A stretch of 64,000 nt of DNA from Geothrix edaphica (GTDB taxonomy: Bacteria > Acidobacteriota > Holophagae > Holophagales > Holophagaceae). Below are positions 12,833-45,461 of the stretch, in pieces (within the stretch, counting starts at the first letter, position 1; every line of letters starts with the position of its first letter). The notes under the pieces are model-generated. The model was not told the DNA's origin. It saw only the letters and a list, made by a program, of their open reading frames with translations, and did no database searches. A program made the translations under genes and the position numbers. The stretch covers positions 186,001-250,000 of the forward strand of contig NZ_BSDC01000002.1 of NCBI RefSeq assembly GCF_030268045.1. Direction: 5' to 3'.

Positions 12833-14161
12833 TCAGGCCCTCCGCATCATCTGGGCAATGAGGAACGCCATCTCCAAACTCTGGCTGCGGTTGAGGCGGG
12901 GGTCGCAGCCGCTCTTGTAGGCACGCTCCAGGCCGGCCTCGTCGAGGCCCTCGACGCCGCCCGTGCACTCGGTGACGGGCTCGCCGGTGAGCTCGAAGTG
13001 GACGGCCCGCAGCCTTGACCCATGGGTGCGGTGGAGGTCGGCCACCTCGCGCAGCTCCTGGAGGATGTCCCCGAAGGCCCGCGTCTTCAACCCCCCGGCG
13101 GTGGTGCGGCCATTGCCGTGCATGGGGTCGCAGCTCCACAGCACGGGGTGGCCCTCGGCCCGGGCGGCTTCGATGAGGCCTGGCAACACACGCCCGGCCT
13201 TGCCGGCGCCGAAGCGGGTGATGAGGGTGAGGCGGCCCGGCTGGCGCTGGGGATCCAGCTTGGACAGGACCTGTCGCAATTCCTCCGGCGTCATGGCGGC
13301 GCCGACCTTCAGGCCGATGGGGTTCGCCAGGCCGCGGATGTACTCCAGGTGGGCGCCGTCCAGCTGGCGGGTGCGCTCGCCGATCCAGAGGAAGTGCGCG
13401 CCCAGGTTGTAGTGGGCCCCCTTCTCCGGCGCCCAGCGCGTGAGGGCCGTCTCGAAGGGCAGGTGCAGGGCCTCATGGCTGGTGAACAGCTCGCCGGTGC
13501 GGAGGTGCTCGGGCAGGCCGCCCAGGCATTTCACGAAGTCGAGGGAGGCCCGCACCTGGTCCAGCGTCTCCAGGTAGTGGCCCGCGTCCTCCCGGCTCCA
13601 GGGCAGGTCCCAGTGCTCCGGGTTGTGCAGGTCCGCGAAGCCGCCGTCCACCAGGGCCCGCAGGTGGTTGAGGGTGGCGGCGGCGCGGTGGTAGGCCTCC
13701 AGCAGGCGCCGGGGATCGGCCTCGCGCTGGTCCGGGTCCACGCCGTTGATGAGGTCGCCCCGGTAGACCGGCACCTCGCGGCCGTCCACCACCTCCGTGT
13801 CGCCGCTGCGGGGCTTGGCGTACTGGCCGGCGATGCGGCCCAGGTGGATGACGCCCGTGCGGCCGCCGTGGGTGATGAGCACGGACATCTGGAGCAGCAC
13901 CCGGAGCTTGTCCTGGATGATGGCGCCCCGGCAGTCGGCGAAGGCCTCGGCGCAGTCGCCGCCCTGGAGGAGGAAGCGTTTCCCCGCGGCGGCCTCGGCG
14001 ATCAGGGCGCGCAGGTGATCCACCTCCTCGGCCACCACCAGGGGCGGCAGCTCCCGCAGCTCCGCCAGGGCCGCGTCCACGGCTGCGGCATCGCGGTAGC
14101 GCGGCTGCTGGGCCGCGGGCAGGCCGCGCCAGGAATCGGGCGTCCAGGCCAGGCCGGTCAT
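12833..14161 (-). CDS. aroG: Class II 3-deoxy-7-phosphoheptulonate (DAHP) synthase
   Basis: First enzyme of the shikimate pathway, joining phosphoenolpyruvate and erythrose 4-phosphate; 442 aa, the class II (plant/Mycobacterium) length. The metal-binding LLQGGDCAEAF (64-74) and the CDPMHGNG segment near the C-terminus are diagnostic. The start codon overlaps the pheA stop (ATGA at 14158-14161), so the two are translationally coupled. Both genes sit downstream of a phenylalanine leader attenuator, which would link flux entry to phenylalanine supply. The class I aroF/G/H type is excluded by the motifs. Confidence 0.95.
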   Translation of the reverse strand: MTGLAWTPDSWRGLPAAQQPRYRDAAAVDAALAELRELPPLVVAEEVDHLRALIAEAAAGKRFLLQGGDCAEAFADCRGAIIQDKLRVLLQMSVLITHGGRTGVIHLGRIAGQYAKPRSGDTEVVDGREVPVYRGDLINGVDPDQREADPRRLLEAYHRAAATLNHLRALVDGGFADLHNPEHWDLPWSREDAGHYLETLDQVRASLDFVKCLGGLPEHLRTGELFTSHEALHLPFETALTRWAPEKGAHYNLGAHFLWIGERTRQLDGAHLEYIRGLANPIGLKVGAAMTPEELRQVLSKLDPQRQPGRLTLITRFGAGKAGRVLPGLIEAARAEGHPVLWSCDPMHGNGRTTAGGLKTRAFGDILQELREVADLHRTHGSRLRAVHFELTGEPVTECTGGVEGLDEAGLERAYKSGCDPRLNRSQSLEMAFLIAQMMRRA

Positions 14162-15255
14162 CGTGCCACCTCCATGGCCCGCGGATAGCTGCCCAGCACC
14201 TTGAGGGAGGCGCAGGCCCCCCGCAGCTCGACCAGGGCCTCGGCCATGGAGGGCTCTTCCGCATGGCCCTCCACATCCAGGAAGAAGGCGTACTCCCAGA
14301 GCTTGCGCCGGGTGGGCCGGCTCTGGATGCGGCTGAGGTTGAGGCCCCGGCGGGCCAGGGGCTCCAGCAGGCGCAGCAGGGCGCCGGGACCGTCCTGGGC
14401 CATGGCCAGCAGGGTGGTGCGGTCGCGGCCCGTGGGCTCGGCGGACTTGGGGCCCAGCACCAGGAAGCGGGTGGCGTTGGCGGCCAGGTCCTGGATCTTC
14501 GTCTCCGCCACGCGGAGGCCGAAGAGGTCCGCGGCCAGCTCCGAGGCCACGGCGGCGCCCTCGGCATCCTCCCGGGCCAGGCGGGCGGCTTCTGACGTGG
14601 AGGGGGCCTCGATGCGGTCCGCCCCCGAGAGGTGCGTCTCCAGCCAGCGGCGGCACTGGCCCAGGGCCTGGGGGTGGGAATAGACCCGCCGCACGCCGGC
14701 CAGGTCTAGGCCGGGCCGCAGCAGCAGGGCCTGGTCCACGGCCAGGAGGATCTCCGCGCAGATGGCCAGGGGGCTGTCGAGGAAGGCATCGAGCGTGGAG
14801 TCCACCGCGCCCTCGGTGGCGTTCTCCACGGGCACCACGCCATAGTCGGCGCGCTGGCGCTCCACGGCCTGGAACACGGCCTGGATGGTGCCCTGGGGCA
14901 GGGACTGGCTGGAGCCCCCGAACTGGTGCCGGGCCGCCAGGTGGGTGAAGGTGCCCTCGGGACCGAGGAAGGCCACCCGCAGCGGCTTCTCCAGGCTGAG
15001 GCAGGCGCTCATGATCTCCTGGAAGACCGTGCGCACCGCCGGCGCCGGGAAGGGCCCGGGGCTGGCGGCCTCCAGGCGGGCCAGCACCTCCCGCTCCCGG
15101 GCCGGGGCGTGGAAGAGGGCCTCGGGTGCGGCGGCGGCCTTGAGTCGGCCCACTTCGCCAGCCAGGGCGGCCCGGCGGTTCAGCAGGGCCAGCACCTGGT
15201 CGTCCACGGCATCGATGGCCTGCCGGAGGCCGGGGAGGGACGGGAGCTCGGTCAT
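14158..15255 (-). CDS. pheA: Bifunctional chorismate mutase/prephenate dehydratase
   Basis: Converts chorismate to prephenate and then phenylpyruvate in phenylalanine synthesis; 365 aa. An AroQ chorismate mutase helix bundle (about 1-88) precedes the dehydratase domain (about 91-270, with FLGPEGTFTH and the catalytic TRF of NATRFLVLG). A C-terminal ACT domain (about 285-360) carries the QSRPTRRKLWEY allosteric phenylalanine site. It is first in an operon with the class II DAHP synthase. Upstream are a Phe-rich leader peptide and a terminator hairpin, so expression is probably attenuated by charged tRNA-Phe in addition to ACT feedback. Confidence 0.96.
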   Translation of the reverse strand: MTELPSLPGLRQAIDAVDDQVLALLNRRAALAGEVGRLKAAAAPEALFHAPAREREVLARLEAASPGPFPAPAVRTVFQEIMSACLSLEKPLRVAFLGPEGTFTHLAARHQFGGSSQSLPQGTIQAVFQAVERQRADYGVVPVENATEGAVDSTLDAFLDSPLAICAEILLAVDQALLLRPGLDLAGVRRVYSHPQALGQCRRWLETHLSGADRIEAPSTSEAARLAREDAEGAAVASELAADLFGLRVAETKIQDLAANATRFLVLGPKSAEPTGRDRTTLLAMAQDGPGALLRLLEPLARRGLNLSRIQSRPTRRKLWEYAFFLDVEGHAEEPSMAEALVELRGACASLKVLGSYPRAMEVAR

Positions 15256-15274: not shown

Positions 15275-15303
15275 AAAACCCCCGAGCCTGACGGTCTCGG
15301 GGG
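15275..15303 (-). terminator. Transcription attenuator (terminator hairpin) of the pheA-aroG operon
   Basis: On the minus strand an 8-bp perfect stem, CCCCCGAG (15303-15296) and CTCGGGGG (15286-15279), with a 9-nt loop, is followed by TTTT (15278-15275). It lies 25 nt after the stop of a Phe-rich leader peptide and 20 nt before the pheA start, so it must be read through for pheA expression. Confidence 0.85.
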
Positions 15304-15327
15304 CGATGGTTCGAAGCGGTTCCGGTT

Positions 15328-15393
15328 CTAGACGCCGCCTACCCTCGCACCCGGGGTGCGAAAGCTAAAGAAGAAGGCGCGGGAGAGGGTCAT
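15328..15393 (-). CDS. Phenylalanine leader peptide (pheL-like)
   Basis: A 21-residue reading frame, MTLSRAFFFSFRTPGARVGG plus a final Val, with four Phe codons in a five-codon window (15361-15375), placed directly before the terminator hairpin ahead of pheA. This is the arrangement of the E. coli pheL attenuator: ribosome stalling at the Phe codons when tRNA-Phe is uncharged should block the terminator. The palindrome CGCACCCCGGGTGCG just after the Phe codons could be the pause hairpin. An AAGG lies about 13 nt before the ATG, a weak ribosome-binding site. Inference from sequence only. Confidence 0.8.
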   Translation of the reverse strand: MTLSRAFFFSFRTPGARVGGV

Positions 15394-15439
15394 CACGGTC
15401 TGGATACCTTGACGGAAAAGGCCTGGACCTGCAAGGGAA

Positions 15440-44348: not shown

Positions 44349-45461
44349 ATGAGCCCCTTCGCCGATCTCGACCTCGAAGCCCGGCCCCTGGTGGGGGCCA
44401 CCCTAGCCACCCTGGGGCTCTGCGGCCTGGTGGCCCTGGGCAGCCGGGGCGGTCGCTGGCTGGACCCGGCCCTCCTGGGCTACCTGCTGGCCACCCTCTT
44501 CGCCTGCTTCGGCGTGGCCTACCGCTACTTCTCCTGGATCGAGCGGCCCGCCACGCGGATGTATTTCAAGCACACGCTCCGCACGCTGCTGTCCCCCAGG
44601 GCCATCAAGGCGGTGCCCCGGATGGCCGTACTGGCGCTGGACCAGATCGTGCTCCAGCGCTTCATCGAGAAGCGCTCCCTCAAGCGCTGGGGCGCCCATG
44701 CGCTCCTGGCCTGGGGCTGCCTCCTGGGCTTCGCCGTGACCATCCCCCTGGTCTTCGGCTGGGTGCGCTTCACCAGCGAGGGCCTGGACGCCACCCGCTA
44801 CCAGGCCTGGGTGCTCGGCTTCCCGGCGGGCTCCTTCCCCCTCGACAGCTTCATCGCCTTCTGCAGCTTCCATGTCCTGGACCTGGCGGCGGTCATGGTC
44901 ATCGCCGGCTGCGTGCTGAGCCTCATCCGCCGCAAGCAGGACGAGGGCGACACCGCGACCCAGCGCTTCGACTTGGACCTGCTGCCCCTGGTGCTCCTCA
45001 TCGCCGTGAGCATGACCGGCCTGCTGCTCACCGCCTCGGAGAAGTGGCTCCAGGGTCGCAACTTCGCCACCCTGGCCTTCCTCCACGAGCTGACGGTCAT
45101 CCTCCTGCTGCTGGGCCTGCCCTTCGGCAAGCTCTTCCACGTGGTGCAGCGGCCCGCCCAGGTGGGCGTGACGATCTACAAGGCCGAGGGCGAAGCCGAG
45201 GGGCGCCAGGCCTGCAAGAGCTGCGGCACACCCTTCATCCGGGCCAACCAGCGCCGCGATCTGGAGGCCCTCTGGAAGGAGCTCGAGCTGGACGGGGCCC
45301 GGCACAGCGCGTCCGTCCACCACCTGGACCTCTGCCCCAGATGCAAGCGGCGGCTCGTGGCCAAGGCCCAGAGCACGCGGCTCCATGGCGCTTTCGATCC
45401 CTTCGCCACGATCCCCGTACTGGCGGAACCCATTTCCGATCCCATCAGCATGAAGTCCTGA
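44349..45461 (+). CDS. Membrane subunit of the molybdoenzyme complex (NarI/DsrM-like, with zinc-ribbon-like tail)
   Basis: 370 aa. About six hydrophobic segments (near 15-31, 42-58, 117-138, 165-190, 215-232 and 245-265) with histidines in HALLAWG, SFHVLD and FLHEL, and a final KLFHVV; these could bind b-type hemes as in NarI or DsrM. After residue 280 a soluble tail has CKSCG and CPRCK, a possible zinc ribbon or cluster. It is first in a five-gene operon and probably passes quinol electrons to the ferredoxin and catalytic subunits. Ribosome-binding site GGAG. Family name not certain. Confidence 0.75.
   Translation: MSPFADLDLEARPLVGATLATLGLCGLVALGSRGGRWLDPALLGYLLATLFACFGVAYRYFSWIERPATRMYFKHTLRTLLSPRAIKAVPRMAVLALDQIVLQRFIEKRSLKRWGAHALLAWGCLLGFAVTIPLVFGWVRFTSEGLDATRYQAWVLGFPAGSFPLDSFIAFCSFHVLDLAAVMVIAGCVLSLIRRKQDEGDTATQRFDLDLLPLVLLIAVSMTGLLLTASEKWLQGRNFATLAFLHELTVILLLLGLPFGKLFHVVQRPAQVGVTIYKAEGEAEGRQACKSCGTPFIRANQRRDLEALWKELELDGARHSASVHHLDLCPRCKRRLVAKAQSTRLHGAFDPFATIPVLAEPISDPISMKS

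Follow-up and report, generated by a model that had tools for sequence, protein, structure and literature searches.

The question raised by this locus is whether a short reading frame rich in phenylalanine codons, followed by a GC hairpin in front of pheA, works as a leader-peptide attenuator in Geothrix, and whether it stands alone in its genome. The stretch analysed is a 64-kb window on contig 2 (186001–250000) of the 3.16-Mb genome of Geothrix (Holophagaceae, Acidobacteriota); positions given without a contig refer to this window, and all features described in it are on the minus strand. We conclude, with a probability of roughly 0.9, that pheA and the class II DAHP synthase gene that overlaps it are under the control of a ribosome-mediated transcription attenuator which responds to phenylalanine. 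The evidence is comparative and computational: the sequence itself, its conservation, structures that exclude each other in the folding models, and the match between leader codons and operon. From these we infer the start site, translation of the leader, termination and the response to phenylalanine.

The pheA leader and its operon

The gene pheA (14158..15255) encodes a protein with chorismate mutase II, prephenate dehydratase and ACT domains (Pfam CM_2, PDT, ACT). The start of the following class II DAHP synthase gene (12833..14161; PF01474, E 8e-176) overlaps the pheA stop by 4 nt (ATGA), and its product reaches 571.8 bits against NCBIfam TIGR01358, under the cut-off of 614.7. The initial annotation had read the two genes as one operon, an arrangement which recurs at 31 of 47 loci, duplicate genomes included. 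Among the remaining 16 loci, 11 have less than 700 bases downstream of pheA, and 5 (two of them from the same genome) have at least 1500 bases without a class II DAHP synthase gene. In one genome of genus g6 (G059, contig 51, ~44431–44535; L384) a phenylalanine-type leader with TSFYYFGFRTS immediately precedes a class II DAHP synthase gene whose product is 61.5% identical to that of the window; the locus has no pheA match, as if the element had stayed with the class II DAHP synthase gene.

The leader peptide reading frame (15328..15393; MTLSRAFFFSFRTPGARVGGV*) comprises 21 codons and a TAG stop and is kept in relatives. Its control codons TTC TTC TTT AGC TTT (15361..15375) place phenylalanine at residues 7, 8, 9 and 11, as had been noted in the initial annotation. 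The perfect palindrome proposed there as a possible pause hairpin (CGCACCCCGGGTGCG, 15359–15345) is present and extends to a hairpin of 11 pairs. The 5′ arm of this hairpin, strand 1 (15355..15365), is within the coding frame and overlaps the last phenylalanine codon; the 3′ arm is at 15341..15351. Strand 2 (15345..15355), which runs from the last base of strand 1 through the loop into the 3′ arm, can pair with 15306–15296 to give an antiterminator. An intermediate stem (AGGCGG/CCGCTT; 15314..15340, arms 15340–15335 and 15319–15314) has the stop codon inside and is compatible with either the antiterminator or the terminator. Strand 3 (15296..15306) is both the partner of strand 2 and the 5′ arm of the terminator. 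The terminator hairpin (CCCCCGAGACC-GTCA-GGCTCGGGGG followed by TTTT; 15275..15303) has its stem at 15303–15279 and the T tract at 15278–15275, and folds as a GC hairpin of 10 pairs with about −22 kcal/mol. The stem begins 24 nt after the leader stop, and 19 nt separate TTTT from the pheA ATG (15255). The coordinates and counts of the initial annotation are right; the T tract has just four T. A simple terminator scan, in which at least 5 T in 8 were required, did not list the hairpin because of this short tract. When the leader region alone is folded, z is −1.92 and 7 of 200 shuffles are equally good; therefore, the folding energy by itself is weak evidence.

Upstream, a gene on the same strand (15952–15440) ends 46 nt before the leader. 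A −35-like TTGCAG (15429..15434), just past the stop of this gene, and a −10-like CAAGGT (15406..15411) at a distance of 17 nt are predicted from the consensus. TTG at the −35 position is found at 38 of 39 aligned loci, the exception being L117, which is probably misaligned. The pattern xAxxxT occurs in all 39 rows with a spacing of 16–19 nt (17 nt in 34 rows), compared with 2 of 1950 in a shuffled control. In 31 of 39 rows the −10 element ends 12 nt before the leader ATG; from this distance a 5′ untranslated region of about 6 nt (15394..15399) with a start near A15399 is predicted. The leader would accordingly be read from a nearly leaderless RNA. No Shine-Dalgarno sequence precedes the leader frame, for which the predicted 5′ untranslated region of ~6 nt offers no room, and the reading frame is nevertheless conserved in relatives. 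A sequence scan found no promoter-like site between the hairpin and pheA.

Conservation of the phenylalanine leader

Conservation of the phenylalanine codons in relatives had been set beforehand as a test of the attenuator reading. A strict rule was used for counting: an ATG frame of 12–40 codons with at least three of one residue within 7 codons, whose stop is located 5–80 nt before a hairpin with T tract. One-genome duplicates (L088, L090, L091, L100, L123) and a Myxococcaceae MAG (L006) were left out before the pheA loci were counted. A phenylalanine leader and terminator satisfying this rule are present at 38 of 43 Holophagaceae pheA loci; under the same rule phenylalanine clusters occur at none of 133 other loci (proB 29, proC 30, aro 30, asnB 44). 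Two rule misses are close to the common form: L114 has three more widely spaced phenylalanine codons and a terminator, and L122 (also L165) has MTSRALYFAFSYAPSGAWTGGASN and a terminator. In other genera pheA occurs without such a leader (L118, L119, L120). The alignment of 39 leaders was built from the pheA genes of relatives with their upstream DNA, and most rows share the peptide pattern FxFSFR(T/A)xGA, then GG or SG near the end. The rows are not independent, since the relatives are mostly of one genus.

Among 396 genomes of the phylum, those in which the covariance model R1 detects the element are 22 of Geothrix and G053, which marks it as a feature of the family rather than of the whole phylum. 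Five weak R1 matches outside the family (L166–L170, E 2.5e-4 to 0.004) lack the layout of leader plus operon and were judged to be chance. Weak matches of R2 outside the family numbered four (E 0.002–0.009), with L383 and L385 lacking a terminator by the pattern used. Of 80 pheA loci, most belong to other phyla, and outside Holophagaceae no comparable phenylalanine leader stood out. Scattered phenylalanine-rich reading frames were seen there, e.g. at L009, L019 and L048.

Alternative RNA structures

An antiterminator alternative to the terminator was another test set in advance, and such a structure exists. In the absence of a ribosome three helices fold together: the pause hairpin of strands 1 and 2 (1:2), the middle stem and the terminator of strands 3 and 4 (3:4). 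The 1:2 hairpin is paired in 95.7% of the alignment cells, two of its pairs showing changes in both partners, and the terminator in 99.4%, with 8 of its 10 pairs invariant in 35 distinct rows. The competing 2:3 helix is formed by strand 2 (CCCGGGUGCGA in the window, CUCGGGUGCGA in most relatives) against the terminator sequence UCGCCCCCGAG. It comprises 9 of 11 pairs in the window, with two mismatches (U-C, C-A). Most relatives form 10 of 11, and 37 of 39 rows keep 8 or more, the exceptions being L121 and the probably misaligned L117. Compared with random 11-mers for the same partner, strand 2 of the window ranks within the best 1.9% and the common form within the best 0.35%. Covariation of 2:3 within the pheA loci does not exceed that of shuffles because strand 3 hardly varies.

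To model a stalled ribosome, the RNA was masked between the leader AUG and a point 12 nt beyond the first base of the phenylalanine codon that precedes AGC; to model the nascent RNA, it was ended before strand 4. For the stalled, nascent RNA the mean probability of 2:3 is 0.82, and 37 of 39 rows reach 0.7 or more (lowest 0.35), compared with a mean of 0.48 and 24 of 390 at or above 0.7 when strand 2 is shuffled. Without a ribosome 3:4 has a probability of ~0.8, and 2:3 does not exceed 0.02 in 37 of 39 rows. At equilibrium the full-length RNA often prefers the terminator despite the stall mask; therefore, antitermination has to be kinetic, in line with the textbook model. In some relatives the nascent RNA favours 2:3 even when no stall is imposed. 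The T tract also differs among relatives, several of which have CTTC or CTTT instead of TTTT.

According to the mechanism proposed here, transcription would start a few nucleotides before the leader frame. With plentiful Phe-tRNA the ribosome would run through the four phenylalanine codons and strand 2 would be covered or held in 1:2, leaving strands 3 and 4 to form the terminator. With scarce Phe-tRNA the ribosome would stall at codons 7–9 and cover strand 1; the free strand 2 could then capture strand 3 while strand 4 is still to be transcribed, and with 2:3 formed the polymerase would read into pheA-aroF(II).

Probable sister attenuators in the same genome and family

The initial annotation had missed that the pheA locus is one of an attenuator set. 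At least seven such predicted elements, the one for phenylalanine before pheA included, are present in the Geothrix genome; the other six are coded for Tyr/Trp/Phe (class I DAHP synthase), Trp (trpE), Pro (proBA and proC), Asn (asnB) and Ile (ilvA). The proline-coded leader before proC is the second match of R1 in its own genome, and the other sisters were found by own-genome terminator patterns and protein searches. The proline-coded leaders before proBA and proC are at L127 (contig 1, ~584532) and L159 (contig 2, ~52929); the proC leader is MILIPAIHPRPSTLRAGGVA and the proB leader MIPVATLNPIPSQPIPGIPVGGV. The leader of class I DAHP synthase (MTPRFHTYYWFPRADRAWHGEGPA; L241, contig 1, ~234953–235057) has Tyr-Tyr-Trp-Phe codons and might, judged by this codon series, sense the three aromatic amino acids together. 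Three consecutive tryptophan codons characterize the trpE leader (L250, contig 1, ~1185483), and MTNPSLRSNRNINRLPRANRAWAGEGLT is the asnB leader (L251:1400–1560; contig 1, ~1220835–1220956). The candidate isoleucine-coded leader containing SISAAIAIIW (L172, contig 1, ~1272989) and its terminator are located ~270–290 nt before ilvA. With NCBIfam models aroFGH, asnB, proC and proB are above cut-off, ilvA is above the cut-off of ilvA_2Cterm and trpE is below cut-off; the gene of G053 at L163 is weakly assigned to asparagine synthetase A. A match before carA (L244) was rejected for want of a clear arginine-rich leader. The own-genome terminator patterns (8 and 39 rows) also gave many matches without leader, and since the looser pattern read backwards gives 23, many of its matches are noise.

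Under the strict rule asparagine leaders are found at 36 of 44 asnB loci, and asparagine clusters at 0 of 132 loci of other operons. The rule holds at 21 of 29 proB loci, L235 (contig edge, spurious) being left out of this count (22 of 30 with it), and at 15 of 30 aro loci. At proC 8 of 30 loci follow the rule; by eye ~19 have a PRPST motif, and others are without any leader. Proline clusters are less specific, as they also pass at 1 pheA, 5 aro and 9 asnB loci; alanine and arginine clusters each pass at 32 asnB loci. One 'YWF' match under the cluster rule was observed at an asnB locus.

The asnB leaders following the rule come from genera g1, g6, g9 and g10. Those of g9 have a different hairpin and terminator (VNFANNNPPPGWSW), g3 has asnB without leader, and in g4 an asparagine-rich leader without ATG start precedes asnB in G052, outside the 44 loci. 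Asparagine-coded leaders before asnB are thus seen in several Holophagaceae genera with two unrelated hairpin/terminator types (L336, L337, L341–L345, L378). A divergent Geothrix clade has MFALLLQTPRPSQPPPGAPAGEGLS before proC, and proline-coded leaders were also seen at L381 and L382. The aro and asnB leaders (L276–L294, L306–L349) share a peptide ending RA(D/N)RAWxGxG because of a common RNA hairpin, and may descend from one attenuator by duplication.

In the combined asnB and aro leaders (n = 43; the alignment leaves out four rule-passing leaders that the search expression did not capture, as well as four from g9) 2:3 keeps 10 pairs at 99.8% of cells. One of the 2:3 pairs, in the 1:2 loop, is G-U in 19 rows, A-U in 12 and G-C in another 12, with A-C in none, going from A-U to G-C through G-U. 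Relative to the commonest type no pair counts as a change in both partners, and 14 of 500 shuffles score at least as high as the alignment. Furthermore, a 7 × 7 table of strand 2 against strand 3 of the seven leaders gives −16.9 kcal/mol on the diagonal versus −12.1 kcal/mol, and 3 of 5040 assignments, identity included, are as low as the true one. Strand 2 of pheA binds strand 3 of proB and trpE more tightly than its own; the strongest 2:3 duplex of the seven is that of trpE (−22.7 kcal/mol).

Choice of control codons

The synonymous codons in the leaders were compared with 11 genes of the same Geothrix genome. TTT accounts for 1 of 134 phenylalanine codons in these genes versus 92 of 159 in 38 pheA leaders, and each of the 38 leaders uses it. 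AAT rises from 9 of 89 to 90 of 139 in the asnB leaders, TAT from 12 of 82 to 25 of 28 in the aro leaders and CCT from 11 of 278 to 33 of 108 in the proB leaders. The control codons of these four groups of leaders lean to the NNT forms, which ordinary genes of this GC-rich genome seldom use. In the phenylalanine leaders the preference for TTT is in part due to pairing needs. According to Elf and Ehrenberg the sensitivity of attenuation depends on the choice among synonymous control codons (PMC1183508).

Other explanations of the locus

The hairpin might be a mere terminator of the upstream gene 15952–15440 and the phenylalanine-rich frame a product of chance, given that this gene is on the same strand, ends just 46 nt before the leader, and that the T tract suits a weak terminator. 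However, reading frame, phenylalanine codons, internal hairpin and spacing are kept together at 38 of 43 loci, in 38 of 39 a promoter-like element follows the end of that gene and precedes the leader, and the same layout with matching codons recurs before asnB, proB, proC, trpE, aro and ilvA. This explanation was rejected on conservation and is extremely improbable. The high nucleotide-level conservation of TTTAGCTTTCGCACC and the lack of a Shine-Dalgarno sequence would also suit an RNA element that senses phenylalanine or a protein without translation of the leader, such as a riboswitch, a T-box-like element or a protein-binding terminator. Against it, the codon identity follows the amino acid of the operon, and little outside the reading frame and the hairpins is conserved enough for an aptamer; a riboswitch or T-box was rejected for want of a match to any Rfam family, T-boxes included, and sensing without translation is very unlikely.

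Alternatively, translation of the leader could control Rho-dependent termination or translation of pheA instead of an intrinsic terminator. The window has just TTTT, U tracts are poorer still in some relatives, and a Rho route has been suggested for Actinobacteria leader peptides without terminators (Seliverstov et al. 2005; PMC1262725). Neither the near-invariant terminator stem nor the complementary strand 2 is needed by such a route, which is unlikely for this locus. Ribosome-mediated control of an intrinsic terminator remains the preferred reading; the pheA leader is very likely real and of a kind already known.

Comparison with known leader-peptide systems

The Phe leader family and T-box models are among the Rfam families. 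No Rfam covariance model matched the window at gathering level, and with E up to 10 only Antizyme_FSE, NsiR1 and SPRY4-IT1_1, which are unrelated families, appeared; the T-box model did not match the leader. The comparison with the E. coli pheL design made in the initial annotation stands for the mechanism and fails for the sequence family. As in E. coli pheL-pheA, a phenylalanine-rich leader peptide and three alternating hairpins precede pheA as first gene. Unlike that system, the Geothrix leader has no sequence or Rfam match and almost no predicted 5′ untranslated region, the class II DAHP synthase gene overlaps pheA, and the control codons lean to the genome-rare TTT.

In the trpL attenuator of Sinorhizobium meliloti transcription starts at the leader AUG. 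The Geothrix leader peptide would likewise be read from a nearly leaderless RNA, its start being a predicted one; in contrast to trpL it is coded for phenylalanine instead of tryptophan, and the sequences are unrelated. In the Salmonella mgtA and mgtCBR leaders proline codons in the leader frame control read-through. Those leaders belong to Mg2+ transport and related genes, whereas the proline leaders of Geothrix precede proBA and proC.

For Actinobacteria trp, ilv and leuS attenuators were predicted (Seliverstov et al. 2005; PMC1262725), and the approach, a comparative search for leader peptide and terminator/antiterminator in GC-rich bacteria, resembles the present one. The elements predicted in that paper are for Trp, Cys and branched-chain amino acids, with none upstream of Phe operons, and by term counts its text does not mention proline or asparagine. 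Leader genes are counted by phylum in PMC4833913, which in the part used here assigns none of the present leaders. pheA is listed among attenuated operons (PMC1183508). In the open-access literature no leader-peptide attenuator was found for asparagine or proline biosynthesis, and nothing on leader-peptide attenuation in that on Acidobacteria or Geothrix. The set hence includes some specificities (asparagine, proline and mixed aromatic) not found in the open-access literature.

Meaning for Holophagaceae

Geothrix and neighbouring Holophagaceae probably govern a large part of their amino-acid synthesis with a single set of attenuators of their own, which would have a shared plan, nearly leaderless RNAs and rare control codons. 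Beyond the classical specificities it would cover asparagine, at asnB in several genera with two unrelated hairpin types and at an asnA-like gene of one genome; proline, at proBA as well as proC; and, by a mixed Tyr-Tyr-Trp-Phe sensor at class I DAHP synthase, the joint supply of the three aromatic amino acids. Such a set would extend ribosome-mediated attenuation to asparagine and proline synthesis, place a common sensor of the aromatic amino acids where the shikimate pathway begins, and provide natural paralogues whose terminators and antiterminators have changed in concert. The functions proposed for the pheA locus and its six sisters are specific and open to experiment, in a genus of which some members are in culture. 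If shown to work, the asparagine, proline and mixed-aromatic versions would be a larger result than the pheA locus itself.
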